From an uncultured Flavobacteriales bacterium (lineage in GTDB: Bacteria; Bacteroidota; Bacteroidia; Flavobacteriales_D; Parvicellaceae), in contig CAJQPO010000050.1 of NCBI GenBank assembly GCA_905480225.1, positions 1-48,850 of the forward strand: 48,850 bases of DNA, given 5' to 3'. Position 1 is the stretch's first letter. Every line of letters begins with the position of its first letter. Made by a program: the position numbers and the translations under genes. The notes below the pieces were generated by a model, which made no database searches, was not told the DNA's origin, and worked only from the letters and a program-made list of their open reading frames with translations. This document shows, piece by piece, positions 2,004 to 48,850 of the stretch.

Positions 2004-2007
2004 TAGG

Positions 2008-3507: not shown

Positions 3508-3511
3508 AAGG

Positions 3512-4744: not shown

Positions 4745-4756
4745 GAAATCAAACTT

Positions 4757-4798
4757 AAAATAACCCTGTTCGATCGCTGTATTGGGCAGGGTTATTTT
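4757..4798 (+). terminator. Intrinsic terminator after the folE-cysS-peptidase run
   Basis: AAAATAACCCTG (4757-4768) is perfectly complementary to CAGGGTTATTTT (4787-4798) over 12 bases, with an 18-base loop and an AT-rich 3' flank. It lies 13 bases after the stop of the peptidase gene and before a probable promoter for yidD. Confidence 0.85.
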
Positions 4799-4823
4799 AT
4801 ATTTAAAATCAAATATTTCTTGC

Positions 4824-4831
4824 TAACTTTC
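4824..4831 (+). promoter_or_regulatory. Probable -7 promoter element of the yidD gene run
   Basis: TAACTTTC differs from TAnnTTTG only in the last base and lies 9 bases before the yidD ATG, directly after the preceding terminator. No clear -33 TTG is visible. It would drive the closely packed genes up to 12988. Confidence 0.5.
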
Positions 4832-4840
4832 CGAACCCTT

Positions 4841-5134
4841 ATGAGGAAGGTTTTAAATAAAATTTTCATTTTTCCGGTAAAAATTTACCAATGGATTATA
4901 TCACCCCTTTTCCCTGGTTCGTGTCGGCATGAACCTACCTGTTCAAATTATGCGGTTGAAGCGATTGAAGAGTGGGGGCCACTGAAAGGGATGTTACTTG
5001 GAATAAAGAGACTGAGTAAATGCCATCCGTGGGGAACTTGGGGGCAAGATCCGGTTCCAAAAAAGAACGTGAAAAAGCCAAACAAGGAAAACACAAATCA
5101 ACAATGTTCAAATCAACTTATAAAAGCGGGATGA
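4841..5134 (+). CDS. yidD: Membrane protein insertion efficiency factor
   Basis: YidD is a small inner-membrane-associated protein that helps YidC insert membrane proteins. The 97-residue product has the signature pattern: IYQWIISPLFPGSCRHEPTC (three Pro-Gly/Cys landmarks), then SNYAVEAIEEWGPLKG and CHPWGTWGQDPVP. The cysteines in SCRHEPTCSNY and KCHPWG are typical. I start it at ATG 4841, not at TTG 4820, because the extra seven residues overlap the probable promoter. A lysine- and asparagine-rich tail of about 25 residues follows the conserved core. In many bacteria yidD sits between rpmH/rnpA and yidC; here it instead opens a run of envelope genes and ends one base before the ACMSD gene. 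Confidence 0.93.
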   Translation: MRKVLNKIFIFPVKIYQWIISPLFPGSCRHEPTCSNYAVEAIEEWGPLKGMLLGIKRLSKCHPWGTWGQDPVPKKNVKKPNKENTNQQCSNQLIKAG

Positions 5135-5135
5135 T

Positions 5136-6143
5136 ATGCTGAAAATTGACATGCATACACATTTAATGCCTGAACAAATGCCACGATGGTCTGAGAAGTT
5201 TGGCTACGGTGGTTTTATTCATTTAGACCACCACCGAAAAGGGTGGGCACGAATGATGCAAGACAGTAAATTTTTCAGAGAAATAAATGAGAATTGCTGG
5301 GACCCGAAAGTTAGGATTAATGAATACTTGGAATTTGATACACAGGTGCAAGTAATTTGTACGATTCCGGTGCTCTTTTCATATTGGGCGAAGCCAAAAG
5401 ATTGTCTTCAAATATCAGAATTCCTCAACGATCATATTGCAGATATTGTACACAAGTATCCGAAGCAATATGTTGGGTTAGGCACAGTGCCAATGCAAGA
5501 CGCAGAATTGGCGATTAAAGAATTACATCGGATCAAAGAAATGGGTCTGGTTGGAATCCAGATTGGATCCAACATCAATAATAAAAACTTAAACGAAGAC
5601 GAATTTTTTCCAATTTTTGAAGCATGTTCTAAATTAGGTTTAGCGGTAATGGTTCATCCATGGAACATGATGGGTAAAAAACACATGGAGCAGTACTGGC
5701 TGCCATGGCTTGTCGGTATGCCTGCAGAAACATCACGAGCAATGTGTTCTATGATTTTTGGAGGAGTTTTAGAAAAGCTTCCGGGATTAAGATTAAACTT
5801 TGTTCATTCAGGAGGCTCCTTCTTACCAACCATAGGAAGAGTAGAACACGGCTTCAACTGCAGGCCAGATTTAGTAGCAGTGGATAACCCGATTAATCCA
5901 AGAGAATACTTAGGTAAATTTTGGGTGGATTGTATTACGCATGATCCATTGATGCTGGAGTACATTTTGAAAGTGCAAGGTTCAAAAAGAATTACCCTCG
6001 GCAGCGATTACCCATTTCCTCTTGGTGATCTTGAAATTGGAAAGTTCATAACGGAAATGAATATAGATGAATCTGTAGTAGAAGATATTTTCTGCAATTC
6101 AACCTTGGAATGGCTTAATTTAACTAAGGAACAATTCTTGTAA
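5136..6143 (+). CDS. Amidohydrolase of the aminocarboxymuconate-semialdehyde decarboxylase family
   Basis: ACMSD decarboxylates 2-amino-3-carboxymuconate semialdehyde, diverting the kynurenine pathway of tryptophan breakdown away from quinolinate and NAD. The 335 residues align along the whole length with the known enzyme as I recall it: GYGGFIHLDHH, ENCWDP, VPVLFSYWAKP-like TIPVLFSYWAKP, WLPWLVGMPAET and GSDYPFPLGDLE. The metal ligands H7, H9, H174 (VMVHPW), H224 (NFVHSGG) and D291 (GSDYPF) are all present. The start at 5136 is one base after the yidD stop. No kynurenine pathway neighbours are in the window; the gene sits among envelope genes. A related substrate is possible, but the motif match makes ACMSD itself the best call. 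Confidence 0.9.
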   Translation: MLKIDMHTHLMPEQMPRWSEKFGYGGFIHLDHHRKGWARMMQDSKFFREINENCWDPKVRINEYLEFDTQVQVICTIPVLFSYWAKPKDCLQISEFLNDHIADIVHKYPKQYVGLGTVPMQDAELAIKELHRIKEMGLVGIQIGSNINNKNLNEDEFFPIFEACSKLGLAVMVHPWNMMGKKHMEQYWLPWLVGMPAETSRAMCSMIFGGVLEKLPGLRLNFVHSGGSFLPTIGRVEHGFNCRPDLVAVDNPINPREYLGKFWVDCITHDPLMLEYILKVQGSKRITLGSDYPFPLGDLEIGKFITEMNIDESVVEDIFCNSTLEWLNLTKEQFL

Positions 6144-6163
6144 ACCATTGTTAAAAATAAAAT

Positions 6164-8050
6164 ATGTTTAAACTTATTATAACATTTGTTTTAGTTGCAG
6201 TTGTAAGCAGTATAAGTGCACAACGACCACCAGAAAATCCGCCAACCATGAAAGGCCCGAACCCAGCTTATATGGGGTATTGGCAACAACGAATTCAGTA
6301 CAATATGGATATCGTTGTTGATCACGAACAGCACCAGTTTTCAGGCAAGCAAATGATTCGGTATACCAACAACTCACCAGACGAGTTGAATCAAGTGTTT
6401 TTTCATTTGTATTACAATGCTTTTCAACCTAACTCAATGATGGATACTCGTTCTCGAACCATTTCAGATCCTGATGGCCGAGTAACAGACAGAATTTTAC
6501 ACCTGGATCAGAAAGATGTAGGTTATCACAAAATTACTTCATTGAAGTTCCAAGGAGAGCCTGTTGAATTTATTGTGGAAGGTACCATTATGGAGGTGTC
6601 ACTACCTGTAGGTATTAAACCAAACACAACGGTTGAGTTTGAGATGGAATATGAATCACAAATTCCTTTACAGATCAGACGAACGGGCAAGATGAATAAT
6701 GAAGGAATTGATTATTCCATGACCCAATGGTACCCTAAAATGGCCGAATATGATAAGGAAGGATGGCATGCAAACCCTTATGTTGGAAGAGAATTCCATG
6801 GTGTATGGGGTGATTTTGATGTTACCATTCACATGGACAAAAGTTATGTTATTGGTGGAACGGGTGTTTTGCAAAATCCGGATGAAATAGGCCATGGTTA
6901 TGTTCCCAAAGGAACTGTTTTGAATAGGCCTAATGGAGAAGTTTTACATTGGCATTTTAAAGCAGAAAACGTACATGATTTTGCTTGGGCGGCCGACCCT
7001 GATTATCAGCACGACATTGTTCAGATGGAGAATGGCACCAGAATTCATTTTTTATATCAGGCCGATAGCTCAGCGCAGAATTGGACAAATCTACAGCCAT
7101 ATGCAGTACAGAGTTTTGAATACGTCAACGAGAATTTTGGTGTATATCCCTATCCACAATATTCAATCATCCAAGGAGGAGATGGGGGTATGGAATACCC
7201 GATGTGCACGCTAATAACGTCTCACGGATCTTTTGCAGGTTTAGTTAGTGTTACCGTTCACGAAAGCATTCACAGCTGGTATCAGGGAATGCTGGCTACG
7301 AATGAATCGAAGTATCCTTGGATGGATGAGGGGTTTACTACTTATGCTCAAGCAATGACGTTGGATCATTTGTACGAGCGAAATGCGGTCAATCCTTTAG
7401 CAAACTCTTATATGGGGTACGCGATGTTAGCCAGGTCGGTAGATCAAGAGCCGCTTACAACGCATGCGGATCATTACAAAAAGAACAGAACTTACGGCAT
7501 ATCGGTTTATTCAAAAGGAGCTGTTTTTTTGCACCAGTTGAGTTATATTGTTGGAAAAGAAGCATTTCAGCGGGGAATGTTGGATTACTACAAAACCTGG
7601 CGGTTTAAACATCCTACACCAGATGATTTTAAAAGAATTATGGAAAAGGCCTCTGGCTTAGAGCTGGATTGGTATATGGAGCAGTTTGTCGGTACGGTCA
7701 ATACAGTAGATTATGTTATAGACAGCGTACAGAAAAATGGCAAGGCAACAAAAATCGTATTAAAGAAACGGGGCGATATGCCCATGCCTTTAGACATTAA
7801 AATAACGCTATCAGATGGAACGGTGGAGTGGCATTATATTCCAATAAGAATAATGAGAGGTGAAAAAGGTCCGGATCTAGCCAAGTTTAATAAAATCCAG
7901 AAAGATTGGGGTTGGGCTTATCCAGAATATGAACTAGATATTGATGTTCCATTTAAAAAGATTGCAAAAGTTGAAATAGATCCTACTAGAAGGATGGCTG
8001 ACATTTACCCTGCGAACAATGTTTATCCTGCTCGAAAAAAGAAACCATAA
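6164..8050 (+). CDS. Secreted M1-family metallopeptidase
   Basis: This 628-residue protein is a gluzincin aminopeptidase-like enzyme. A signal peptide (MFKLIITFVLVAVVSSISAQ) directs it to the periplasm. After an N-terminal beta domain of about 230 residues comes the catalytic domain with the zinc motif HESIH (H366, E367, H370) and the third ligand E389 in WMDEGF, giving the exact HEXXH-X18-E spacing of family M1. The GGMEYP-type segment (DGGMEYPMCT) upstream matches the substrate-binding GxMEN region of the family, with Tyr-Pro instead of Asn. A smaller C-terminal beta domain follows; no T9SS tail is seen. It is 20 bases after the ACMSD gene and overlaps lgt by one base. Confidence 0.93.
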   Translation: MFKLIITFVLVAVVSSISAQRPPENPPTMKGPNPAYMGYWQQRIQYNMDIVVDHEQHQFSGKQMIRYTNNSPDELNQVFFHLYYNAFQPNSMMDTRSRTISDPDGRVTDRILHLDQKDVGYHKITSLKFQGEPVEFIVEGTIMEVSLPVGIKPNTTVEFEMEYESQIPLQIRRTGKMNNEGIDYSMTQWYPKMAEYDKEGWHANPYVGREFHGVWGDFDVTIHMDKSYVIGGTGVLQNPDEIGHGYVPKGTVLNRPNGEVLHWHFKAENVHDFAWAADPDYQHDIVQMENGTRIHFLYQADSSAQNWTNLQPYAVQSFEYVNENFGVYPYPQYSIIQGGDGGMEYPMCTLITSHGSFAGLVSVTVHESIHSWYQGMLATNESKYPWMDEGFTTYAQAMTLDHLYERNAVNPLANSYMGYAMLARSVDQEPLTTHADHYKKNRTYGISVYSKGAVFLHQLSYIVGKEAFQRGMLDYYKTWRFKHPTPDDFKRIMEKASGLELDWYMEQFVGTVNTVDYVIDSVQKNGKATKIVLKKRGDMPMPLDIKITLSDGTVEWHYIPIRIMRGEKGPDLAKFNKIQKDWGWAYPEYELDIDVPFKKIAKVEIDPTRRMADIYPANNVYPARKKKP

Positions 8051-8961
8051 TGATGAACATACTCGCAATAGAATGGAATGTAGAACCGGCCATGTTTTCA
8101 ATAGGAACTTTTGAAATCAGGTGGTATGGTTTGTTGTTTGCGGTGTCCTTTTTTGTTGGTTATCAGATTGTGCAAACCATGTTTAAGCGCGAGGGAGAGG
8201 ATTTAAAAAGGCTGGATAAATTATTGATGTACGTATTAATAGCAACAGTTGTTGGCGCACGTTTGGGACATGTGTTTTTTTATGATTGGCCATCCTACAG
8301 AGACGATTTATGGAGTATTTTAAACATTAGAGAAGGTGGGTTAGCGAGTCATGGTGCCGCCATTACTATCATTATTTCACTTATTATTTTTTCGAAGAGA
8401 ATATTAAAAGAAAAACCCGTCTTGTGGATTTTTGATCGCGTGGCTCCAGCAATTGCCATTGCGGCATTTTTTATTCGAATTGGGAACTTGTTCAATCATG
8501 AAATTATGGGGATAACTACAAATGTACCATGGGCATTCAGCTTTTCTCAGTATTGGAATAATAGCATTCATGGATTTGACTCAAGCCCCCGTCATCCTGC
8601 TCAACTTTATGAAGCACTCTGTTATTTACTCATATTTGGTTTATTGATTTGGGTTTTTTATAAGAAAAAGGGCTATACTCGAATGGGGTTGATTACAGGG
8701 CTCTTTTTTACGCTTTTGTTTACAGCAAGATTTTTTATCGAATTCATTAAAGAACATCAGGCTGAAAATATTGCCGATGATTCGGTATTAAATATGGGGC
8801 AGTATTTGTCAATACCGTGCATCTTACTTGGCCTCTTCTTTGTATTTAGATCGAGAAAACACGTTGTCCCAGACCTTGCTGAATTACACGCGCAACAATT
8901 GGCACTGGCTGATTCAGAAACCATCCAGGATACTGATAATGCAGATAATCAAAAAAATTGA
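8050..8961 (+). CDS. lgt: Prolipoprotein diacylglyceryl transferase
   Basis: Lgt moves diacylglycerol from phosphatidylglycerol to the lipobox cysteine of prelipoproteins at the inner membrane. The 303-residue product has about seven hydrophobic segments and the family motifs: IRWYGLLFAVSFF near the start, GGLASHGAAI (the conserved His region), and RIGNLFNHEIMG, which corresponds to the RIGNFxNxE Lgt signature with its essential Arg and Asn. The PRHPAQLYEAL motif is also typical. The ATG at 8050 overlaps the stop of the M1 peptidase gene (TAATG); an ATG three bases on is equally possible. The tail of about 30 acidic residues is not conserved. The next gene encodes a lipoprotein, which Lgt would modify. 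Confidence 0.97.
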   Translation: MMNILAIEWNVEPAMFSIGTFEIRWYGLLFAVSFFVGYQIVQTMFKREGEDLKRLDKLLMYVLIATVVGARLGHVFFYDWPSYRDDLWSILNIREGGLASHGAAITIIISLIIFSKRILKEKPVLWIFDRVAPAIAIAAFFIRIGNLFNHEIMGITTNVPWAFSFSQYWNNSIHGFDSSPRHPAQLYEALCYLLIFGLLIWVFYKKKGYTRMGLITGLFFTLLFTARFFIEFIKEHQAENIADDSVLNMGQYLSIPCILLGLFFVFRSRKHVVPDLAELHAQQLALADSETIQDTDNADNQKN

Positions 8962-8979
8962 ATTAGCACTATTTTCACT

Positions 8980-10494
8980 ATGAACAAAGTTCTTATTGTA
9001 CTATCTATTGTCTTACTGTCGGCCTGTGGAAAGAGTCAGCAAAGTACAAGCAGCGTAACTGTAATTGAACACCAATTAATTAATGAAGAGGAACAGGAGC
9101 GCGCGCACATTCCACCATTTACAGCCATTGATACGAACTATAATTCGATGGATTTACTATTGCCTGAGGGATTTAGTTATGAAATACTCTTTACGGAATT
9201 TATAGATAAGGTAACGCGTGCCGATGGCAAGCAGTTTCCGGCAAAAGGGAGTCATGACTTGTGTGTGTATATTCCAATAGAAAATTCCAGTGAACACGGG
9301 TACTTGTATATTGGGCATGAAGACAGGTATGTTAATCAGGCGCTTGGTGATGGTGGCGGAGCAACTATTTTTGAAGTAAAGAAAGACAGTATTGGTTGGA
9401 AAACGGTAGGTGATTTTAAACACGTTGATTTCCGACCAATTAGAGATACGCACAGAAATTGTGGTGGTACGATTACTCCATGGGGAACTGTTTTAAGTGC
9501 TGAAGAAACCTACCCTTTGTCTAATGCGAACATCTCGTTTAATGGAACTTATATTTCTGATCTGAGTCCAATTAACAATCGAGACGCTTATACCAATTTT
9601 GGTTGGATGGTTGAAATTGACCCCATTACGCAGAAACCGTTACAAAAATTATATGCGATGGGCAGGTTCATGCACGAAGACGCAGAATGTATGGAAGACG
9701 GTAAGACCGTTTATTTAACCGATGATTATCCTGTCGCTGTATTTTTTAAGTTTGTTGCTGATCAGGCTGGGGATTACACCAGTGGACAATTATACGCGTA
9801 CCGCCAATCGTTAGATGGTGAATCAGGGAAATGGCTTGAATTGCCTCGAGATACTAATTCGCTGATAAGGTGCAGGGACATTGCACTTGAAAGTGGGGCA
9901 ACTTTGTTTCAACGCCACGAATGGTTAGCATCGTCAAATGGCAAAATCTATATTTCAGAAACAGGAAATGTACAATTTGATTGGACCAGACGAATCTTAG
10001 AAGGCGCCGTTCCCGCGAAACATTTTATAGATCATTTTCAGGTAGGAAACAATGTGTTTTCCGATGTGCATGGTCGAATTTTAGAGTTTGATCCAGCAAC
10101 CAACAAGATGAGAAGCTATCTAGAGGGTGGCATTGATGAAGCAGATTCAGCCACTATATTATCTAATCCAGACGGAAATGCAATTCAAACTTTTGATGGT
10201 GTAGATTATCTTGTTATCAATGAAGACATTGATTGGTTTGATAGAGGTCGTGTTCCCCAATATGTAACCGCCGCTCAACGTTTCATTAATGAGGTCTATT
10301 TTTTACCTTTGAACAAGCAAGAGCCACAGCGAAGTGATTTAATGAGATTTGCTATTGGGCCTAAAGGAAGTGAAACAACAGGGACTTATTTTACTCCTGA
10401 CGGTAAAACCATGTTTTTAAATATTCAGCATCCTTGGCCAAGAAATAAGCCACCATTTAACCGGTCTTGCACAGTAGCGATTACGGGATTTTAA
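8980..10494 (+). CDS. PhoX-like phosphatase family lipoprotein
   Basis: The 504-residue protein starts with a lipoprotein signal: MNKVLIVLSIVLLSAC, with lipobox LSAC and the acylated Cys at 16. The mature part belongs to the PhoX family (DUF839), calcium- and iron-dependent alkaline phosphatases with a beta-propeller fold. Visible landmarks are DLCVYIPIE, YLYIGHEDR, NCGGTITPWGTVLSAEE (equivalent to the NCxGGxTPWGTxLxxEE motif), MGRFMHEDAE, VYLTDDY and GTYFTPDGKTMFLNIQHPW. Typical bacterial PhoX is Tat-exported, whereas this one uses a Sec lipoprotein signal, so the fold is firm but phosphatase activity on phosphate esters is less sure. It lies 18 bases after lgt and overlaps the ABC ATPase gene by one base. 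Confidence 0.85.
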   Translation: MNKVLIVLSIVLLSACGKSQQSTSSVTVIEHQLINEEEQERAHIPPFTAIDTNYNSMDLLLPEGFSYEILFTEFIDKVTRADGKQFPAKGSHDLCVYIPIENSSEHGYLYIGHEDRYVNQALGDGGGATIFEVKKDSIGWKTVGDFKHVDFRPIRDTHRNCGGTITPWGTVLSAEETYPLSNANISFNGTYISDLSPINNRDAYTNFGWMVEIDPITQKPLQKLYAMGRFMHEDAECMEDGKTVYLTDDYPVAVFFKFVADQAGDYTSGQLYAYRQSLDGESGKWLELPRDTNSLIRCRDIALESGATLFQRHEWLASSNGKIYISETGNVQFDWTRRILEGAVPAKHFIDHFQVGNNVFSDVHGRILEFDPATNKMRSYLEGGIDEADSATILSNPDGNAIQTFDGVDYLVINEDIDWFDRGRVPQYVTAAQRFINEVYFLPLNKQEPQRSDLMRFAIGPKGSETTGTYFTPDGKTMFLNIQHPWPRNKPPFNRSCTVAITGF

Positions 10495-11120
10495 TGATTG
10501 AAGTAAAAGACATATCATTTGCATATAAGGGGGGCGAACGAATCACTTTTCCCAGCTTCTCTTATCCGCAAGGTGAACAGGCATTAATAATTGGTAAGTC
10601 GGGTTGTGGTAAAACGACTTTATTGCATTTGTTGGCTGGATTAATTTCTCCATTAGATGGGCAAATTGATATTGCAGGAACCTGTACATCTCATTTGTCA
10701 GGCAGTAAAATGGATCGGTTTCGAGGAAATAATATTGGTGTGATTTTTCAGAAGCCGCATTTTGTGAAGGCACTGAATGTGCTTGAAAATGTCCTTTTAG
10801 CACAAAATCTAAGTGGAAACCAAAAAAATTTAAAGCATGCTCAGGACCTTTTAAACTCCTTGGGCCTCACCCATAAGTTAACGGCAAAGGTTACCGATTT
10901 AAGTGAGGGAGAAAAACAACGGGTGTCTATTGCTAGAGCGCTTGTAAATAACCCTCAATTGATTTTAGCAGATGAGCCCACTTCGGCGTTAGACGATGAG
11001 AACTGTGCGGCAGTAATTGAATTATTAAAACGAAGTTCGAAAGAAGCCAATTCTACTTTGCTCATTGTTACGCACGACAACCGATTAAAAGAACATTTTA
11101 GCAATAAGATAGCGCTATGA
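10494..11120 (+). CDS. ABC transporter ATPase, MacB/LolD type
   Basis: This is the cytoplasmic ATPase of an ABC complex of the MacB/LolD class. The 208 residues contain Walker A GKSGCGKTT (34-42), the Q-loop in FQKPHF, the signature LSEGEKQR, Walker B LILADEPTSALD, and the switch histidine in LLIVTHDN. It starts at the ATG at 10494, overlapping the PhoX stop (TAATG), and not at the upstream TTG at 10467 that lies inside the PhoX gene. It overlaps the permease gene by four bases (ATGA), so the two are translationally coupled and certainly form one unit. The substrate is inferred from the permease and the following DUF3299 gene. Confidence 0.95.
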   Translation: MIEVKDISFAYKGGERITFPSFSYPQGEQALIIGKSGCGKTTLLHLLAGLISPLDGQIDIAGTCTSHLSGSKMDRFRGNNIGVIFQKPHFVKALNVLENVLLAQNLSGNQKNLKHAQDLLNSLGLTHKLTAKVTDLSEGEKQRVSIARALVNNPQLILADEPTSALDDENCAAVIELLKRSSKEANSTLLIVTHDNRLKEHFSNKIAL

Positions 11121-12532
11121 ATGCAGTTAAACTCAGCTGGAAGAACATAAGGTACAGGCCATGGAGATCAGGATTGGCAGTGCTGCTTATGGCATCTGGT
11201 TTAAGTATAGTGATTGTCTTGGTATTAACCCAGAGCCAAATAGATGAAAAGTTTAAAAATAATTTAGCTGAAATTGACTTAGTTGTTGGTGCTAAAGGAT
11301 CGCCACTTCAGTTGGTATTGAGCAGTGTTTATCACATTGATAACCCTACTGGAAACATCCATGAAGACAGTTGTGAATTCATTAAGAATCATCCTTTTGT
11401 TGCCAGCACAATTCCTGTATGCATAGGGGATAATTTCAGAACGTATAGAATTGTAGGGACAACGGATGAATACCTTAAGATGTATGGTGCGCAACTCAAG
11501 ACGGGCGTTGTTTGGAATAAACCGATGCAGCTTGTAGTTGGTGCTAATGTCTATGAAAAATACCCGAATAAACTCAAGGTTGGAAAACGAATTACGGGTG
11601 GACATGGAATCGGTAATGATTTACTCGAAGAACACAATCACGCACATGACGGAACTCCATATGAAATTGTGGGTGTTTTGAAGCCGACAGGGAAGGTATT
11701 AGACAACATGTTGTTGTGTGATTATCGAAGTACATGGATTGTACATTCTGGTCACGATAGTGGCGCGAGTTTTGATTTAAAATCTAAAATCGACGTAGAT
11801 ACCTCTAATGTAGAATTGCAAGATGATTCTAACCAAGATAGCGCTGCGATATCGGCAGATACGCTAGTTGCGGAGCATACAGCTGAGGCCCATGCGGGTC
11901 ATGATCACAGCGAACACAATCACGGTCATCACGATCATGCTAAGCCTGTTCTAAACGTTGATAGTGTTTTGAAAACGATACCAAACTCCAACCGAGAAAT
12001 TACAGCATTATTGGTTAAATACAAGAATATGAGAGCACAGATGTTTATTCCAAATGCAGTGAATAAAAACTCTTCATTAATAGCAGCAGATCCGGATATT
12101 GAAAGAGATCGAATGTTGAAATTAGTAGACTCGGGTATTCAGACCGCCAATTTAATGGGTTATTTTGTTCTGATTATTTCGGCGATTAGCGTCTTCATTG
12201 CTCTTTTTAGTTCACTCAAAGACCGGGGATATGAAATAGCTTTAATTAGGGTCCAGGGAGCAAGCAGATTGAAGGTTTTTGCTATGATTCTCGGAGAGGG
12301 TTTGTTACTGTCAGTATTGGGATATATTTTTGCTATACTGATTAGTCACGTTGGAATGTGGGTAGTTTCGGGCATATTAGAAACGAATTATCATTACGCC
12401 TTTAATCCATGGGCCTTTTCAATTATGGAAGTTTATTTGTTGGGTACTGCATTATTAATTGGCCTGATTTCTGCGTTATTACCAGCAATGAAAGCTTACA
12501 AAACAGATATTTCTACAACTTTAAGTAAATAG
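11117..12532 (+). CDS. FtsX/MacB-like ABC permease with a histidine-rich periplasmic loop
   Basis: The 471-residue permease has one N-terminal membrane helix (about residues 18-38), a large periplasmic domain, and three C-terminal helices (about 347-365, 390-412, 440-465), the MacB/LolE layout. The periplasmic domain has EEHNHAHD (171-178) just before a conserved YEIVGVLKPTG segment. A second histidine cluster lies at 254-274, with nine His in 21 residues (GHDHSEHNHGHHDHA at 261-275). Such stretches bind zinc, nickel or similar ions in other proteins. With the ATPase before it and a DUF3299 protein after it, I infer a metal-linked envelope complex. MacB-type permeases work by coupling ATP hydrolysis to movements of the periplasmic domain, so it need not import metal through the membrane. 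The specific metal is unknown. Confidence 0.88.
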   Translation: MNAVKLSWKNIRYRPWRSGLAVLLMASGLSIVIVLVLTQSQIDEKFKNNLAEIDLVVGAKGSPLQLVLSSVYHIDNPTGNIHEDSCEFIKNHPFVASTIPVCIGDNFRTYRIVGTTDEYLKMYGAQLKTGVVWNKPMQLVVGANVYEKYPNKLKVGKRITGGHGIGNDLLEEHNHAHDGTPYEIVGVLKPTGKVLDNMLLCDYRSTWIVHSGHDSGASFDLKSKIDVDTSNVELQDDSNQDSAAISADTLVAEHTAEAHAGHDHSEHNHGHHDHAKPVLNVDSVLKTIPNSNREITALLVKYKNMRAQMFIPNAVNKNSSLIAADPDIERDRMLKLVDSGIQTANLMGYFVLIISAISVFIALFSSLKDRGYEIALIRVQGASRLKVFAMILGEGLLLSVLGYIFAILISHVGMWVVSGILETNYHYAFNPWAFSIMEVYLLGTALLIGLISALLPAMKAYKTDISTTLSK

Positions 12533-12535
12533 ATC

Positions 12536-12988
12536 ATGACCAAAACGTTAAAATTTGTAGCGCTTATTGCCTTTGTCGGAATAACTTTCGCATTTAGCAA
12601 ATCAGAGCCAATTAAAATTACCTGGGAGATATTAAAGGATGTAAAATTTTCAGATAAATGGTCGGATGAGTTTCAAGCCTATTATGCGGTGCCCTCATTT
12701 GGAAATAACATTAAAAAGTACAACGGTCAAGAGGTTCAAATTCGAGGATATATCATCCCTATTGATATTGTTGATGGGTATTATGTACTTTCAGCGAATC
12801 CCTATAGTCAATGTTTTTTCTGTGGAAATGCTGGTCCGGAGTCGGTTATGGAGATTCAAATGAAAAAAGAATACCGTGACCTTAGAATGGATCAAATTAT
12901 CACATACAAGGGGAAGCTGAGATTAAATAAAGATGACATTTACCAGCTGAATTATATATTGGAGGATGCGGAAATTGTTGCGCGTTAA
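12536..12988 (+). CDS. DUF3299 exported protein of the ABC module
   Basis: The 150-residue product has a signal peptide (MTKTLKFVALIAFVGITFAF, cut probably near SKS) and one DUF3299 domain. Landmarks are the QIRGYIIPID strand pair, the CFFCGNAGPESVMEI motif with a close cysteine pair (CxxC), and YKGKLRLN. The CxxC plus the following acidic residue could hold a metal or form a disulfide. The gene starts three bases after the permease stop, and pairing of DUF3299 proteins with MacB-type ABC genes is recurrent in Proteobacteria and Bacteroidota as I recall, in one Pseudomonas case under zinc control. Its stop codon overlaps the kdtA stop codon on the other strand, so the two convergent transcripts share their last bases. 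Confidence 0.82.
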   Translation: MTKTLKFVALIAFVGITFAFSKSEPIKITWEILKDVKFSDKWSDEFQAYYAVPSFGNNIKKYNGQEVQIRGYIIPIDIVDGYYVLSANPYSQCFFCGNAGPESVMEIQMKKEYRDLRMDQIITYKGKLRLNKDDIYQLNYILEDAEIVAR

Positions 12989-14196
12989 ATCATTGATTGA
13001 AGCTCTTCCATCAAAATTGCTGTCGCACCAGATCGACTTTCAACGAAATTTTTTGCAGCGGTTCCTGCCTGTTTTCTTTTAGATTCATCCATAACCAGTA
13101 ATTTAATAACTGGTGAGAATTCAGTTCTTGAAACGGAATAGCCACCACCAGATTCCACAAGCTCTTTACCCTCAGGATATTTTGAATGGTTATTACCATA
13201 AACAACCGGTATTCCAAAAGTAGCGGGTTCTAAAATATTGTGCAACGCATTCGTAAATCCGCCTCCAATAACTGCAACATCTGCGTAGTAGTACGCACTG
13301 GCTAGCTGACCGATGGTATTCAATATCATGATCGATGCGTCTTTAACTGGGGCTTCCTTATAATAATCTATTGGGATTTTTATTCTTTTACTTATTTCGT
13401 TAACGTGCCTATCAGAAACGTCGTGAGGTGCTATTATAAACTGAACGTGTTTGAAGTTTTCGCTATTTAAAATGGGCATAATTAGTTCCTCTTCAACTTG
13501 CCAGGAACTCCCCAAAATAACTAATAGTTTCTCTTTTTTAAATTGTGCTATTCTATCATTTTGATTGACCTCCGTGCGCTGCTCAATAACCCTGTCGTAT
13601 CTCGTGTCTCCTGCTTGCATGGCTGCAATCTCGCCTTTCGACTCCAATAATTTCAAAGATGCCTTGTCTTGCGTAAATATTTTGGTGCACAATTGCAATG
13701 TTGAAAACATAAAGCCACCATAAGATTTAAAATAGATTTGATTTGGTCGAAAAGATGCGGCAATTAAATAAAGGCTGGTATTACGTATTTTTAATTGCTT
13801 AAAGAAATGATGCCATACTTCGTATTTTACAAAAATGGCCAATCGAGGATTTATACTATCCAGGAACTTACTGGCATTAGCACTTGAGTCAATTGGTAAA
13901 TAATAAATTCCGTCAGCAAGTGGATAATCTTTTTTGTTTTCATAACCGGAAGGTGAAAAAAACGTAAGAACAATACTTTGTTTTGGCCATCTTCTTTTAA
14001 TGCCTTCAATCAATGGTCGGGCCTGTTCAAATTCCCCTAATGAAGCACAATGAAACCAAATAGAACCTGGGTGATTATTAAAAACCTGATTCTTCCTTCC
14101 ATTAATCCATAACCTGGCTTTTTTATTAAATGGTGCAGTTATGTAAATACCTATTAAATATCCTACAATTCCTATGTTGTACAGAAATTTACCCAC
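12985..14196 (-). CDS. kdtA: 3-deoxy-D-manno-octulosonic acid (Kdo) transferase
   Basis: KdtA/WaaA adds Kdo from CMP-Kdo to lipid A precursor at the inner face of the inner membrane. The product has an N-terminal membrane anchor (FLYNIGIVGYLIGIYI), KARLWINGRKN, the GxFEQARPLI-type acceptor segment (WFHCASLGEFEQARPL), an NPRLAIFVKYEVWHH strand and the GT-B C-terminal site (YADVAVIGGGFTNALHNILE, then PVVYG). I place the start at GTG 14196 (403 residues). The longer frame from ATG 14265 would overlap the upstream gene by 52 bases, contain the promoter box, and carry 23 residues unlike the family. The start GTG lies only four bases after a -7 box, suggesting a nearly leaderless mRNA. Confidence 0.93.
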   Translation of the reverse strand: MGKFLYNIGIVGYLIGIYITAPFNKKARLWINGRKNQVFNNHPGSIWFHCASLGEFEQARPLIEGIKRRWPKQSIVLTFFSPSGYENKKDYPLADGIYYLPIDSSANASKFLDSINPRLAIFVKYEVWHHFFKQLKIRNTSLYLIAASFRPNQIYFKSYGGFMFSTLQLCTKIFTQDKASLKLLESKGEIAAMQAGDTRYDRVIEQRTEVNQNDRIAQFKKEKLLVILGSSWQVEEELIMPILNSENFKHVQFIIAPHDVSDRHVNEISKRIKIPIDYYKEAPVKDASIMILNTIGQLASAYYYADVAVIGGGFTNALHNILEPATFGIPVVYGNNHSKYPEGKELVESGGGYSVSRTEFSPVIKLLVMDESKRKQAGTAAKNFVESRSGATAILMEELQSMI

Positions 14197-14200
14197 GGGA

Positions 14201-14208
14201 TAAAGATA
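14201..14208 (-). promoter_or_regulatory. -7 promoter element of kdtA
   Basis: Read on the minus strand the bases are TATCTTTA, seven of eight matches to TAnnTTTG, ending four bases before the GTG start of kdtA. It overlaps the 3' end of the upstream gene region, just after that gene's stop codon. Confidence 0.5.
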
Positions 14209-14213
14209 AGTTT

Positions 14214-14966
14214 TTAGTTCAAGTAGAAATCTTGAAGAGGTCTTTTGCGAATTGGAACAATCCAACCTGCTCGAATGCCCATCAAGAGATCTGTTCTACT
14301 TTGATTTACTTGGGTAGCAGCTCCAGCTTGTCGCAGTCTTCTACCCCGAGTAAATCCTTCAGAAAGGTCTATTCCAGCGAAGAAATTAGCTAAACCTTTG
14401 TTACCCATATGAGAATAGCCAATAAATTGAGTCAGTACCAATCCGTTGGTGTAACGATCATAAAGTTTGCTGTATTCTCCGGTGAATTGTGGTACCAAGT
14501 CTTGTTCTGCTTCAATGCGAACTTTGTGTTGGATGAAGCCAGCTCCGAATTTCAACAAGATACCGCTGTTAGGATTAGGTCCTATTATCGGGAAAACTTT
14601 CCCAATATTTCCTGTGAAAATCCAACCGCGTTCGTAAGCCAAGACATTGGCAAACGCTCCGTTCTGATTGATGATTTGGCCGTTGGAAGTATACATGTCA
14701 GTAAGCATTGAGGTATCTTTTACCTGATTGCCAAAAAAGAACTGTGAATTAATACCTATCACCCAATTGGAGGCTAATTTAAAATCGACATTGAAACCAA
14801 TATTAGAATTCCAGCCAAATCGATTTTTAAGATCACCTTCAGGTATCTGTGCTGCATATGAAAGACTTACTTGCGTTGTGAAAATAGAACTGTCTTTTAC
14901 AGACTGACTAGTCCCTAATGAAGTAAAAAATACCACCAAAAAGAGTGTTGCAAAAGTAGATCTCAT
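14214..14966 (-). CDS. Predicted outer-membrane beta-barrel protein
   Basis: The 250-residue product has a signal peptide (MRSTFATLFLVVFFTSLG, cut near TSQS) and a mature part of alternating hydrophobic strands (WVIGINSQFFFG, GILLKFGAGFIQHKV, LVLTQFIGYSHMG, LLMGIRAGWIVPI), the pattern of an 8-10 stranded Bacteroidota outer-membrane barrel. I do not know its function. The segment GKVFPIIGPNPNSGILLKFG resembles conserved proteins that sit next to kdtA or other LPS genes in Flavobacteriales, as far as I can recall. The ATG at 14966 is preferred to the one at 14999 because it gives a proper signal peptide and lies 7 bases after a promoter box. It may share a transcript with kdtA. Confidence 0.75.
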   Translation of the reverse strand: MRSTFATLFLVVFFTSLGTSQSVKDSSIFTTQVSLSYAAQIPEGDLKNRFGWNSNIGFNVDFKLASNWVIGINSQFFFGNQVKDTSMLTDMYTSNGQIINQNGAFANVLAYERGWIFTGNIGKVFPIIGPNPNSGILLKFGAGFIQHKVRIEAEQDLVPQFTGEYSKLYDRYTNGLVLTQFIGYSHMGNKGLANFFAGIDLSEGFTRGRRLRQAGAATQVNQSRTDLLMGIRAGWIVPIRKRPLQDFYLN

Positions 14967-43101: not shown

Positions 43102-46100
43102 TTACCGTAGGATTACGAATTTCTTTTTAAATACTCCTTCTGTTGTATTTAAATGAACAAAGTAAATCCCACTTTCAATTGATGATACATTGTAATCGAC
43201 TCTATAGGTTATCATACTTTCAGCATGACCACTATACAAGGTCTGAATTACTTTTCCTCGGATATTCATTACAGTAACTGTAATTTCTTGATCCTTCGTT
43301 ACTGTAAATTCAAAGGTCGCATTTTGATCTGCAGGATTTGGATACTGCTGAATAATTGGACCTGCTTCGTTCACATTGGTTATTTCTGTTTCTGGTTTTG
43401 TGCGATCAGAACTGTTAGCCTTGGCTGCAGAAGAACTGCATTCGTTGCCTTCAGTATCCGTCCAAGCAATTACTTCGAATGGGAAGAAAAACCTTCCTAC
43501 AGGATTGTCGCAACAGTTGGTTGGGATTTTAATCGGTCCAAAATCAGTACCTGCAAGTTCAAAGTAGGTTTCTTTTCTCAAGTAATCTAATCCTGCAGAA
43601 GCAGCATCAATTGTAAACACATCTCCTGTATTTGCATTCGAGGCGCTCAGTAGGGTAACGTTACACTTTTTTGCAGTAACATTTAAATCCTGATTGGAAG
43701 GACCGATGTATCGTACTGTAAGCGTGACTAATTTGCCATCACAAACACAAGAAACAGAATCGTTGTCCACTTGGGCATTGCTACATGCAGCTGTTTGTTG
43801 CGCATCGCAGGGGCCTAAGGTATATCCACAATTCAGTCTTTTTTGAATGTGTTTTTGTTGCACGCAATACGTTTCTCCTTCAAAACACATTAAGACCTTG
43901 TCTTTCTTACCAGCCTTACTATTGGATTTGCAATCAGAGCCTGAAGCACTGCTGTAATCAGAAATTTGGTGACTTATTTTTGAATATTTAGAAAGGTGAC
44001 AATTAGAACTACTTCCAGAGCCAGAGCTACTTCCAGAGCCAGAGCCACTGCCAGAACCAGAGCTACTTCCAGAACCAGAGCCACTGCCAGAGTTAGAACT
44101 ACTTCCAGATGGACAACTTACACCACTAGCATGACTAGCATAGCTAATTCCTGAACTTGATCCGCTTCCAGAACCAGAATGTGATACGCTTCCAGAACCA
44201 GAATGTGATCCGCTTCCAGAGCCAGAATGTGATCCACTTCCAGAACCAGAATGTGATCCGCTTCCAGAACTAGACCCGCCAGGCGTGCAAGAAATATCAA
44301 CCTGCTCCACTGTCCAATCAATGGTGGTTATACAGCCATTGGCGTCTGTTACTGTAAGTGTGTATGTTGATGTGCTATCAGGGCATACAATTATAGAAGA
44401 TGTAGTTTCACTAGTAGACCAATCATAACCATAACCTGGAGTTCCACCAGTCGCTGCACCATCAATTGTAGCACATCCGAATTCGATTCCGGCTCCTCCG
44501 TATACTAACGAACATCCATCAGCATCTGCTACCAATGGGGTAGGTTCCGCTATCGTTATTGTGGTTGATTCTGAACATCCTTTTGAATCCGTAACAACAT
44601 ACGTGTATGTTCCAGCAACTTCAGAATAACTGCCAATTCCGGTATATGGTGGAGCACCACCATTAGCGGTAACTTCAACGATTGTTGTATCTCCGAAACA
44701 AAGGACAGGACCAGCAGTTGCTGAAACGGTCAAGTCAGGATCTCTAGTTACCGAGAATGTGCAATTGGCTACATTTCCAGAATTGTCTATCGCCGTTATT
44801 GTTACCGTCGTAGTAGTACCTTCTGCAAATGTCGATCCACTTGGGATATCAGATGAGACAGAAGAAACGCCACAATTATCTGATGCAATTAAATCCCAGC
44901 TAGCAGTTGGAGTACATTCTGATAAAACGATGTCAGAAGGACAATCAATTACGGGTAATTCAGCATCTGTTACCGTTACATCCATTGAACAGTTTGAAGT
45001 ATTTCCAGAACCGTCCGTTACTGTCCAGGTAACTGTTGTCGTTCCTAAAGGATAAGTATCACTGGCATCCGAAGTACCGTTGTAATCATTGATAACTGAA
45101 ACTACAGAACAATTGTCTGAAGAAGCGGGTGCTGCAATGGTAGTCATTGCTTCACAGACACCTGCGTCCGTATTGACAGCTACATCAGCAGGGCAATTGA
45201 TTACAGGAGCCTCATTATCCGTTACGGTAACATCTATTGAGCAGTTAGCTGTATTTCCAGAACCATCCGTTACCGTCCAGGTAACTGTTGTCGTTCCTAA
45301 AGGATAAGTATCACTCGCATCTGATGTGCCGTTGTAATCATTAACAACAGAAGCCACAGAACAATTATCTGAACTGGTTGGTGGATCAATGCTAATCAAT
45401 GCTTCACAAACTCCAGGATCACTATTAACAGCAACATCTGCAGAACAAGCAATAGAAGGATCTTCTGTATCTGTAACAGTAACATCCATTGAGCAGTTAG
45501 CTGTATTTCCAGAACCGTCCGTTACTGTCCAGGTAACGGTTGTCGTTCCTAAAGGATAAGTATCACTGGCATCCGAAGTACCGTTATAATCATTAATAAC
45601 AGAAGCCACAGAACAATTATCTGAACTGGTTGGTGCAGCTATGCTAATTAATGCCTCACAAACTCCAGAGTCTGTATTGACAGCTGCATCAGCAGGACAA
45701 TTAATCGTTGGAGCAGTAACGTCAGGAACAACGGTCGTAGTGATTGTTGTTGAAGCCGTACAGCCATTATTATCTGTAATCAAATAATCGTAAGTGCCTT
45801 CATTAACAGTAAATGTTCCCGCTCCGCTGTAGGGCGCAACACCGCCACTAGCAGACACGGTAACATCTGTCATTCCTCCAATACAAAGGATTTGTGGAGC
45901 AGATGAGGAAGCCACTAATAAGTCTGGTTCTGATATTAAGACATCTTCTAATGGTGATACACAACCATTGGCGTCTTCAACATAAACACTGGATGATCCG
46001 GCAGATAATCCAGTAAAAACATTAGAAGTCTGAGAAGTTCCTCCACTGCTACCAGTAGTCGTAAAGGACCCTATAGGAAAAGGCGACGAAGCAGTGGCGT

Positions 46101-48850
46101 TTGATGATTCACCATCGAGTGCGTTTTTACCACTAAAAGACCATTCTGAGATATCCCAAACACCATCGTTAGTAAAGGAACCAGAATTACGGTAAGCCCA
46201 ACCATCTAGATATTCCCAAGGCTGTCCTGTCCCGTCCACATTGATGTTACCAAAGACATCTATAACAGCTCCGCTTTTAAAGAGCTCAATGGCGTCATCC
46301 CCATTAATACCCATAGATCCACTTGTATAAGAAGGGGAAGTTCCTAAGAAATTTCCAAATTGTAACGCTTCGTAGGAAACGGTAATGTACGAACCAGCTG
46401 ATACTGAAACAGCGGGAAAAGTAAATTCTTGACCATCCGAGCCCCCACCGTTATTGGCAGAACCTAAACCGTAAATACTAAGGTCAGAAATGGCATCAAT
46501 TACATATAATTCCACAGCTTTTGGAGTTCCGCCAGAAAGAGGTCCATCAATTACACCCGAAATAATTAATGCATTTTCAAGGGCATTTACTAAGAAGTAG
46601 GTAAATGGAGCATCTCCTACATTGGGGCTAATGGATATAGAGCCATCTGTGCCTCCAAAGCAACTGACATCGGATATGCTTATTGAAATTTCTGGAATTG
46701 GATTGGAACCTATATCAACCGTTTGACTGGCAGAAACACACCCATTAGCGTCAGTAATACTAACGCTGTATGTACCTTCTGTCAAACCAGAAAAGTCATT
46801 AGAACTTTGAGTGGTCGAACTTCCGCCACCAGAACTTGTAAAGCTTCCAATAGGAAAAGGCGAAGATGCGGTCGCATTAGATGATTCTCCATCTAGCGCA
46901 TTTTTACCACTGAAAGACCACTCAGAAATATCCCAGATGCCATTATTAGGTAATGATCCATTGTCTCTGTAAGCCCATCCATCTAAATATTCCCATGGTT
47001 GTCCTGAGCCATCGACATTGATATTCCCAAAAACATCAATAACAGAACCGCTTTTAAATAGCTCGATTGCATCGTCACCATTAATTCCCATAGAACCACT
47101 TGTATACGATGGCGAACTTCCTAGAAAGTTGCCGAATTGCAAAGATTCGTAGGAAACCGTAATGTAAGAACCCGCTGAAACGGAAACAGGAGGGAAGGTA
47201 AATTCTTGACCATCCGTACCTCCACCGTTATTGGCAGATCCCAATCCATATATACTTAAATCAGCAATGGATTCAATTGCATACAATTCTACTGCTTTGG
47301 GTGTGCCTCCTGATAAGGGCCCGTCGATTACACCACTGATAATTAATGGGTTTTCTAGAGAAGTACCTACTGTGTACGTAAATGGAGAGCTTCCTGTAGA
47401 TGGAGAAATGATAATTGAGCCATCAGATCCTCCAAAGCAAGATACATCTTCAATTGTCGTTGTAAAATTAGGTGTTGGAAGCACGGTTAAAGAAAGCGTT
47501 GAAGAATTTGTTCCACATGCGTTAGAGCCTACAACACTTACATTTCCTGAGCTGGAACCGAAGTCTACAGTTATGCTGTTAGTGCCAGCACCTGATGTGA
47601 TCGAAGCTCCTGACGGAACAGACCAACTATATGAATCAAAACTTGTTGGGAGGATATATGCTACACCTGTTTCGTTCGGGCATACAGCACTTGGTCCAGA
47701 TATGGTTCCGATAGAAGGTGAGAAAAGTGTACCGGAAACATTGAGGTTAAAAGAACCCTGAGAAGCAGAAGAAAATCCTTCTACATGAATGTAATAAGTG
47801 CCGGGAGTAAGAATGGCCGTAACACTGGATTGAAGCCCACATGCATCATCGTTGAGAGCAATGGAAGAACCACCGCAAGGTGCACTTCTTAAGTATAAAT
47901 AAGTATCCCAAGATGCACCACCGCATGTAGAAAAAGTATAGGATCCATTGCACGGTATATTCACAGCATAAACTCTATCATTTGAACTTCGTAAACTACA
48001 GTCGTTACAAGCTCCTACTGTCGTTCCTGAGATTACAAAAGGACTATTATAGGTATAGGTAGCATCTATTCCGCCAGGAGGTGCTACACAAGGACAGGCA
48101 ATTGTTAAACTTCCAGATCCAGCACTTGTGTTTTCTCGATCTAGGAGAAAATAATAAGTAACTCCAGCCACTAAATTGACCGAATTCGTTGCGCCAGAGG
48201 AAGAGATATCATCAACATAAGTCCATCCAGAACTACTACATGACCCAGATTTATAAAACAAATCAACCCATGATGTGCTAGATGTAACTGACACACTGTA
48301 AGCTCCTGTAACAGGTGCTGTGTAAGAGAATACTTGTTCACTCCCTGGGGTAGAATAAGGCCCACCGAGAGAATTCCAAGCACCACTTCCTGAGAGAGAA
48401 TAACTGGAGCCAACTCCACAGGTAATTGGTGTAATACTACTGCAAGGATTGGCTGCAGGAGGTCCAGAAATACGAGTAGCCTTTAAGGTCATACAAGAGC
48501 TTTGATTTGCACATGAATACCTATCAACAAGCACTCTAAGATTATTACCTGTGGCTGTTACTGTAACCTTACTTTGGAGACCGCAAAAATCATCGTTATA
48601 TGCAACATACGCCCCAGTTACGTTATCATAAATGGTGATTTGAGTATCAAATGCTGAGTTGCCGCAAGTTTCAAAAGAATAGAGTGATCCTGCAACTAAT
48701 CCAGTTACTAGTCGATATTCGCCACCCCAGATACAGGTTGTTAAGATAGAGGTTGAGCCCACAGTTGTCGGTGCCCCGGAAGTGCCGTATAAGGTATTAT
48801 TATTGGGACATTGTGAATAGTTGGTTAAAGGAATAAGGATAGTTAGCAGA
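43102..48850 (-). CDS. Giant modular T9SS-exported adhesin-like protein (start just outside the window)
   Basis: The open frame runs to the edge of the window (more than 1,910 residues). Its first visible residues, LLTILIPLTNYSQ then CPNN, look like the end of a signal peptide, so only a few codons are missing; the GTG at 48762 is not the start. In protein order: three PPC-like beta domains (48.78-47.76 kb), a PKD-like domain (47.74-47.47 kb), two SprB-type repeats each interrupted by an LTD-like domain (47.46-45.95 kb), another SprB-like repeat, three near-identical HYR domains plus a divergent fourth (45.72-44.74 kb), two SprB-like repeats, a Ser/Gly/His linker (44.29-44.00 kb), a small cysteine domain (CFEGETYC...LGPC), a DUF7467-like domain, and a type A T9SS sorting tail (QQYPNPADQNATFEF ... 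FVILR). It has no catalytic motif that I can see. Adhesion, gliding or surface-layer roles are inferred from SprB-like parts. Confidence 0.88.
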   Translation of the reverse strand, partial: LLTILIPLTNYSQCPNNNTLYGTSGAPTTVGSTSILTTCIWGGEYRLVTGLVAGSLYSFETCGNSAFDTQITIYDNVTGAYVAYNDDFCGLQSKVTVTATGNNLRVLVDRYSCANQSSCMTLKATRISGPPAANPCSSITPITCGVGSSYSLSGSGAWNSLGGPYSTPGSEQVFSYTAPVTGAYSVSVTSSTSWVDLFYKSGSCSSSGWTYVDDISSSGATNSVNLVAGVTYYFLLDRENTSAGSGSLTIACPCVAPPGGIDATYTYNSPFVISGTTVGACNDCSLRSSNDRVYAVNIPCNGSYTFSTCGGASWDTYLYLRSAPCGGSSIALNDDACGLQSSVTAILTPGTYYIHVEGFSSASQGSFNLNVSGTLFSPSIGTISGPSAVCPNETGVAYILPTSFDSYSWSVPSGASITSGAGTNSITVDFGSSSGNVSVVGSNACGTNSSTLSLTVLPTPNFTTTIEDVSCFGGSDGSIIISPSTGSSPFTYTVGTSLENPLIISGVIDGPLSGGTPKAVELYAIESIADLSIYGLGSANNGGGTDGQEFTFPPVSVSAGSYITVSYESLQFGNFLGSSPSYTSGSMGINGDDAIELFKSGSVIDVFGNINVDGSGQPWEYLDGWAYRDNGSLPNNGIWDISEWSFSGKNALDGESSNATASSPFPIGSFTSSGGGSSTTQSSNDFSGLTEGTYSVSITDANGCVSASQTVDIGSNPIPEISISISDVSCFGGTDGSISISPNVGDAPFTYFLVNALENALIISGVIDGPLSGGTPKAVELYVIDAISDLSIYGLGSANNGGGSDGQEFTFPAVSVSAGSYITVSYEALQFGNFLGTSPSYTSGSMGINGDDAIELFKSGAVIDVFGNINVDGTGQPWEYLDGWAYRNSGSFTNDGVWDISEWSFSGKNALDGESSNATASSPFPIGSFTTTGSSGGTSQTSNVFTGLSAGSSSVYVEDANGCVSPLEDVLISEPDLLVASSSAPQILCIGGMTDVTVSASGGVAPYSGAGTFTVNEGTYDYLITDNNGCTASTTITTTVVPDVTAPTINCPADAAVNTDSGVCEALISIAAPTSSDNCSVASVINDYNGTSDASDTYPLGTTTVTWTVTDGSGNTANCSMDVTVTDTEDPSIACSADVAVNSDPGVCEALISIDPPTSSDNCSVASVVNDYNGTSDASDTYPLGTTTVTWTVTDGSGNTANCSIDVTVTDNEAPVINCPADVAVNTDAGVCEAMTTIAAPASSDNCSVVSVINDYNGTSDASDTYPLGTTTVTWTVTDGSGNTSNCSMDVTVTDAELPVIDCPSDIVLSECTPTASWDLIASDNCGVSSVSSDIPSGSTFAEGTTTTVTITAIDNSGNVANCTFSVTRDPDLTVSATAGPVLCFGDTTIVEVTANGGAPPYTGIGSYSEVAGTYTYVVTDSKGCSESTTITIAEPTPLVADADGCSLVYGGAGIEFGCATIDGAATGGTPGYGYDWSTSETTSSIIVCPDSTSTYTLTVTDANGCITTIDWTVEQVDISCTPGGSSSGSGSHSGSGSGSHSGSGSGSHSGSGSVSHSGSGSGSSSGISYASHASGVSCPSGSSSNSGSGSGSGSSSGSGSGSGSGSSSGSGSSSNCHLSKYSKISHQISDYSSASGSDCKSNSKAGKKDKVLMCFEGETYCVQQKHIQKRLNCGYTLGPCDAQQTAACSNAQVDNDSVSCVCDGKLVTLTVRYIGPSNQDLNVTAKKCNVTLLSASNANTGDVFTIDAASAGLDYLRKETYFELAGTDFGPIKIPTNCCDNPVGRFFFPFEVIAWTDTEGNECSSSAAKANSSDRTKPETEITNVNEAGPIIQQYPNPADQNATFEFTVTKDQEITVTVMNIRGKVIQTLYSGHAESMITYRVDYNVSSIESGIYFVHLNTTEGVFKKKFVILR
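44008..44110 (-). repeat. 18-base imperfect repeats coding a Ser-Gly linker
   Basis: The stretch is built of short CCAGAG/CTTCCAGA-type units in an about 18-base period. On the coding strand it gives SGSGSGSSSG-type sequence. Perfect short repeats like this are prone to slippage and copy change between strains. Confidence 0.8.
44165..44260 (-). repeat. 24-base tandem repeat, four copies, coding GSHSGSGS
   Basis: Four units of 24 bases beginning CTTCCAGA follow one another, with only one or two changes between copies, and a partial fifth unit runs to about 44278. Each unit encodes eight residues, GSHSGSGS with one histidine. Together with the 18-base repeats they form a flexible linker between the adhesin domains and the C-terminal region. 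Confidence 0.85.
44990..45715 (-). repeat. 252-base tandem repeat, three HYR-domain copies
   Basis: Three copies with an exact 252-base period (marker GTTCCTAAAG at 45041, 45293 and 45545) encode 84-residue HYR domains: INCPADVAVNTD, SSDNCSV, DYNGTSDASDTYPLGTTTVT and VTDGSGNTANCS. The copies are almost identical in amino-acid sequence, and also in DNA, showing recent duplication or conversion. A fourth, divergent HYR-like domain lies at about 44745-44965. Confidence 0.88.
46062..47465 (-). repeat. 777-base duplicated module: LTD-like domain inserted in a SprB repeat
   Basis: Two copies with a 777-base period (CCAAAGCAA at 46655 and 47432) each encode the start of a SprB repeat (DVSCFGG(S/T)DGSI, FTY), then about 170 residues of an LTD-like domain (ISGVIDGPLSGGTPKAVELY ... 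NGDDAIELFK ... WEYLDGWAYR ... SFSGKNALDGESSNATA), and then the end of the SprB repeat (TYSVSITDANGCVS in the first copy, SSSVYVEDANGCVS in the second). Confidence 0.85.

Follow-up and report, generated by a model that had tools for sequence, protein, structure and literature searches.

A secreted repeat protein encoded in the 48,850-nucleotide stretch of an uncultured Flavobacteriales bacterium analysed here (hereafter the window) contains two SprB repeats, each interrupted at the same loop by a divergent lamin-tail (LTD) domain. On balance we favour the reading that both repeats act as split domains, with a probable binding module held off the stalk of the protein. The window is contig C50 of genome G000 in full. 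The open reading frame lies on its minus strand at positions 43102 to 48849, and the domains located within it below are on that strand; it can be read for 1915 residues, its 5' end being cut by the end of the contig, and because the first residues resemble the end of a signal peptide, little may be missing. Besides PKD_6, SprB and four stretches of HYR, the protein has a region rich in Ser, Gly and His and a type A tail of the type IX secretion system (T9SS). The C-terminal sorting domain (43111 to 43344) is recognized by both NCBIfam and Pfam, with TIGR04183 scoring 43.4 bits (cut-off 23) and PF18962 scoring 50.8 bits (cut-off 27).

The interrupted repeats lie in two consecutive units of 259 residues, whose starts are separated by 259 residues or 777 nucleotides, and in each unit a domain of 172-173 residues separates the first part of a SprB repeat from its last part. 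Unit 1 (46672 to 47448, residues 468-726) is directly preceded by the PKD_6 domain (47482 to 47712, Pfam), and its split repeat is made up of an opening half (47371 to 47463, residues 463-493) that forms three strands in the predicted model, an insert of the ExeM type (46837 to 47355, residues 499-671), and a closing half (46711 to 46812, residues 680-713). In unit 2 (45895 to 46671, residues 727-985) the corresponding parts are the opening half at 46597 to 46689 (residues 721-751), the insert at 46060 to 46578 (residues 758-930), and the closing half at 45925 to 46038 (residues 938-975). An earlier reading of the sequence alone had placed the arrangement at 46062-47465; both units are real, but that interval is slightly short, since it stops where the second insert ends and the closing SprB half of unit 2 (46038-45925) falls outside it. 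The units are followed by a three-copy array of a 252-nucleotide repeat with HYR domains (44933 to 45714), in which copies 2 and 3 are 78% and 82% identical to copy 1. The low-complexity Ser/Gly/His-rich stretch (44005-44274), built of 18- and 24-nucleotide tandem units, separates the repeats from the C-terminal part, and near the C-terminus is a short cysteine motif, CFEGETYCVQQKHIQKRLNCGYTLGPC (43807-43887), similar to ICHNGETLCVNANAVAAHLVHGDELGAC in a related protein of genome G352 (locus L191).

Nesting of one domain within another predicts that a complete host repeat reappears when the insert is removed. The Pfam SprB model PF13573 matches both opening halves (38.0 and 36.4 bits, cut-off 28), but its 37 positions span only the opening half of the repeat, and it was dropped as a joining test, joined and half constructs scoring alike with a model that covers the first half only. 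A SprB profile of 75 positions was therefore built from 23 intact repeats of the family genomes. Against this profile, the flanks of unit 1 with the insert removed score 54.5 bits over positions 3-68, as compared to 30.4 and 30.0 bits for the halves alone, and for unit 2 the joined flanks reach 49.3 bits (positions 3-74), against 30.3 and 21.7 bits for the separate halves. A complete SprB repeat of about 70-75 residues is thus recovered from both units, bearing out the earlier claim of an LTD-like domain nested twice inside a SprB repeat. The same test was applied to 125 LTD-type domains, near-copies included, in 87 open reading frames from the window and from loci L037-L042 and L055-L134, the relatives being the best 80 of 516. 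A joined SprB repeat was found around 12 of the 125, two in each of six proteins (the window protein, L055, L056, L058, L108 and L126, of which L055 nearly duplicates the window protein and L126 nearly duplicates L108), and the other 113, which serve as a control set, have no SprB match across the junction. The close relatives L055 and L056 come from metagenome-assembled genomes labelled Crocinitomicaceae and Flavobacteriales, respectively.

Predicted structures are consistent with the two SprB halves forming one sandwich with the LTD-like domain as a side lobe, the picture that the sequence-only reading had proposed to check by modelling. The AlphaFold model of unit 1, computed from an alignment of 44 sequences into which no row of an intact SprB repeat was entered, has a mean pLDDT of 85.9 and a pTM of 0.72. 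Single contiguous FN3/Ig domains align to it from about residue 2 to residue 264 over some 70-85 residues (Z 7.3-8.8), as expected if both halves form one domain; these are end points of the alignments, so residues inside the insert may be included. The spanning matches include domains from the grappling-hook protein of Aureispira that are themselves SprB-like (9flv, Z 8.7; 9flp, Z 8.5; 25% identity). The insert, in turn, aligns with BT_1938 (4q1z, Z 10.0 across 153 residues) as well as with lamin tails (lamin B2 2lll, Z 8.2 across 111 residues; 3gef, Z 7.9); the guidance given with the tool rates Z values around 8 as modest. Foldseek relates the insert to the mouse lamin Ig domain (1ufg) with a probability of 0.96 and an E-value of 0.029, no match reaching 0.001. 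Taken together, the joined-flank scores, the predicted models and their structural matches describe an Ig-like domain that is discontinuous around a complete second domain.

The identity of the second domain is clearer from predicted fold, which is that of a lamin-tail Ig domain, than from curated profiles. The Pfam LTD model PF00932 has no match in the reading frame or in insert 1 up to E 10, and it matches two of 44 relatives (best E 3.6e-5); searches of the PDB by sequence gave no match to the insert up to E 10, and neither the insert alone nor alignment A2 returned anything convincing. The label LTD-like therefore holds for the predicted fold and for a partial match to ExeM, and does not extend to a Pfam LTD match in the window copies. 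The ExeM match, to the N-terminus of the NCBIfam model (E 6.2e-18 for the reading frame, 1.1e-9 for insert 1 alone), is the sole NCBIfam match of the insert and falls far below the model's whole-protein cut-off. It nevertheless raises the alternative that the LTD is a nucleic-acid-binding or enzyme-assisting module, as proposed for LTD-bearing extracellular nucleases, and that the protein binds extracellular DNA. DNA binding has been suggested for the LTDs of halophile DNases (PMC4486849). Neither Pfam nor NCBIfam lists a nuclease domain in the window protein, however, and even ExeM can lose its LTD and still degrade extracellular DNA in vivo, although the truncated enzyme works more slowly in vitro (PMC6085458), a result that also tells against the split-domain reading. 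We regard this alternative as unlikely, and it overlaps with the split-domain reading, DNA being the ligand.

The arrangement recurs beyond the window. A search for proteins with the same break points, which had been put forward with the original observation, found full-length matches to the whole unit in at least seven of 399 genomes of the order (G000, G037, G038, G320, G332, G368 and G352); because about six candidates per genome were scored and counts were made among the matches listed, this number is a lower bound. By their group codes these genomes fall in two families, and they always hold the unit as a doublet, the first unit of G352 being cut by a contig end, while one further genome (G391) has only a fragment, positions 3-111 of 270. 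When 296 genomes sampled from the phylum were searched, none of the 295 besides the window's own gave a full-length unit at E 1e-80, a threshold at which a more diverged unit could be missed.

Comparison of the two window copies indicates which part of the unit is under constraint. Fourfold-degenerate sites are identical at 31 of 96 positions and thus approximately saturated, yet the inserts are identical at 155 of 172 residues (90%), as compared to 44 of 88 (50%) for the host halves. From this pattern of substitution, the insert is the constrained part of the unit. The same contrast bears on a further proposal, in which the insert is a passenger, whether neutral or structural, that the loop tolerates and that lengthens or stiffens the stalk while binding nothing. 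SprB loops do tolerate two unrelated inserts (see below), but a passenger would not be expected to stay nearly unchanged while its host halves diverge, nor to be kept as a doublet in at least seven genomes; this proposal seems to us improbable.

Whether the LTD entered the repeat before the unit was copied is more difficult to ascertain. The sequence-only reading had argued that it must have, since both units share the same break points, but this argument is insufficient because an unrelated module uses the same SprB loop. The conclusion itself is plausible: doublets occur in sister species and in other genera, and in most comparisons of host halves each copy is closest to its same-numbered counterpart. 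Between the window and L056 (G037), opening halves are identical at 29/46 (copy 1 to copy 1) and 30/46 (copy 2 to copy 2) positions, as compared to 23/46 (copy 1 to copy 2) and 24/46 (copy 2 to copy 1), and the closing half of copy 1 matches its own counterpart at 33/41 positions versus 19/42 for the other copy; the closing half of copy 2 has no clear pairing (21/42 own, 20/41 other). In addition, L108 and G352, from two genera, have in common a trait of copy 1, ISDANG.SE without the cysteine. The inserts, by contrast, are more alike within the window than between the window and their L056 counterparts (150/172 for copy 1 and 136/172 for copy 2, both below 155/172), and the insert tree groups both copies of the window and L055 together with L056 outside (support 92). 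No recent gene conversion is seen between the window copies, which have no exact common run of 25 nucleotides or more. The likeness of their inserts could reflect either old conversion or strong constraint. Gene conversion is likely to have occurred between the two units of G352 (L191), where fourfold sites are identical at 21 of 24 positions in the middle of the insert versus 11 of 21 in the next part. Insertion before duplication is thus likely but not settled, with the host halves favouring an old doublet and the insert tree opposing it.

The SprB loop that holds the LTD also accepts a second, unrelated module. In a 3344-residue protein of the window's own genome (L165, G000:C30:12000-28000, frame 4260-14291, minus strand), two SprB repeats are split at the same loop by an insert of about 100-109 residues (CCDYTIDMTDSFGDGWNG..., at residues ~2257-2367 and ~2736-2846), one copy of which has a GDGWNG motif, and the rejoined repeats score 52 and 55 bits. 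Neither Pfam (up to E 1) nor NCBIfam matches this insert, and BLASTP finds no similarity between it and the LTD. The GDGW-type module is also found in the SprB loop in relatives G001, G002, G048 and G003, and it is often un-nested, as a joined SprB repeat accompanies 14 of its 39 matches and none accompanies the remaining 25. The nested cases in this 39-match scan amount to seven modules in four proteins, because rows repeat one protein across two loci and one candidate (L218, residues 152-257) gains only 3 bits. Split repeats of either kind are rare. A census of SprB-rich stretches, sampled as 20 from the window's genome and 40 from relatives, plus the window, counted 1272 intact repeats in 86 open reading frames versus five split ones, namely two in the window, two in C30 and one in G003. 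Three further candidates (L249, L161 and L169) were dropped because their gaps read as ordinary repeats overlooked by the half-models.

More diverse host repeats are interrupted by the same LTD family. In 14 domains of 13 proteins (E < 0.01), the LTD splits an HYR-like repeat just before the sequence 'VTLTVTD'; the joined flanks score 30-104 bits and gain 5.5-17 bits over the better half, most of the score coming from the opening half. The working profile was seeded with five intact neighbours located in five of the 13 proteins scored, and it replaced a first profile of poor fit, with which joined flanks scored 2.6-31 bits and often fell below the closing half plus the following intact HYR repeat. 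Pfam detects no HYR domain when the flanks of the G037 paralogue are joined. A model of an HYR-nested domain (L113; pLDDT 81.9, pTM 0.70) gives a similar picture with lower Z scores than the SprB-nested unit, Rib and PKD domains spanning residues ~3-270 in alignments of 70-80 residues (Z 6.4-7.4) and lamin tails matching 61-220. The protein at L116 (frame 1906-10917) has a different LTD-like stretch of 163 residues (INEFHYDNSGSDVNEFVEVA, residues 1045-1207) in the HYR-like loop that elsewhere in L116 holds an ExeM-type LTD; with this stretch removed, the joined repeat scores 64.5 bits over all 78 positions, as compared to 53.5 and 19.3 bits for the halves.

Such a range of hosts could also arise if the LTD segment were a mobile in-frame cassette that entered repeat loops repeatedly. 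Nesting in SprB and HYR-like repeats is found by the joined-flank test, further apparent split hosts are seen by eye only (Ig_7-like in L133, FN3-like in L092, and a Saprospiraceae repeat in L060, L084 and L123), and host labels change 11 times on the insert tree versus a minimum of five. This tree comprises 105 rows, 20 of the 125 LTDs having been omitted for thinning (12 loci, eight of them Alteromonadaceae). The SprB-nested LTDs need only two changes on it, however, and the AU test does not reject placing the SprB- and HYR-nested inserts together in one clade (p 0.18). We consider repeated entry of a mobile cassette the least probable of the explanations weighed here.

Under the split-domain reading, the chain would lay down the first three strands of an Ig/FN3-like SprB sandwich, exit through the loop after the PYTYxW strand, fold a complete lamin-tail-type domain outside the sandwich, and then re-enter to complete that sandwich with its final strands. 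The stalk would remain continuous, with the LTD predicted to be held at its side. SprB is a gliding adhesin. We infer that the LTD may serve as a ligand-binding module on a T9SS-exported adhesin, recognizing a surface glycan, a protein or DNA, and that two copies would give avidity; the earlier suggestion of a possible binding module is accordingly a plausible one.

A broader proposal, for which we judge the chances to be about even, is that split domains are used generally among the SprB and HYR stalk repeats of Bacteroidota T9SS proteins, in convergence with RTX adhesins: here and there a repeat, rarely, would be interrupted at one fixed loop so as to hold out one of several interchangeable modules (the LTD, the GDGW-type module, and perhaps others). 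A broken repeat would then mark the binding module in giant surface proteins. Giant repeat proteins of the Bacteroidota are hard to read, consisting of long Ig-like arrays with no hint of a ligand, and if the rule holds for SprB and HYR arrays, scanning for repeats broken in mid-loop would point to the few residues worth testing. Bacterial lamin-tail domains would likewise gain a testable role as presented binding heads. Among the papers searched, none joins the lamin tail domain with SprB, or a split domain with type IX secretion, and the literature retrieved for lamin tail domain and adhesin contains none on a nested LTD, judged by titles.

Several known systems are close to the window protein. 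The HYR-like repeat proteins of Flavobacteriales (L113, L124, L131 and others) carry the same LTD family, placed in a single loop ahead of the final strands, and, in the two that were scanned (L113 and L131), a T9SS tail; the host repeat is HYR-like rather than SprB. ExeM resembles the window protein in the match to its N-terminus and in the lamin-tail fold of the insert, but its LTD is N-terminal and followed by nuclease domains, whereas that of the window is nested in a stalk repeat of a protein with no nuclease listed. The domains of GhpA, the grappling-hook protein of Aureispira (PDB 9flv, 9flp and others), align to the rejoined SprB halves of the window, although the matched stretches are contiguous in GhpA and split in the window. 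The arrangement itself is known from RTX adhesins, whose stalks hold out ligand-binding domains by means of split Ig-like domains (PMC12077191, PMC10865825), and the split-domain rule has already been used to pick ligand-binding domains (PMC12077191). In FrhA, MpIBP and AhLap, an Ig-like stalk domain is discontinuous and a second domain buds out of it, an anatomy of the same kind as that of the window units. A point against the analogy is that the split domain of FrhA (the SBD host) is cut after one strand and the SprB repeat of the window after three. RTX adhesins are type I-secreted proteins of Gammaproteobacteria; Pfam and NCBIfam scans list no RTX repeat in the window protein, which instead has a T9SS tail, SprB hosts (HYR elsewhere) and a lamin-tail insert.
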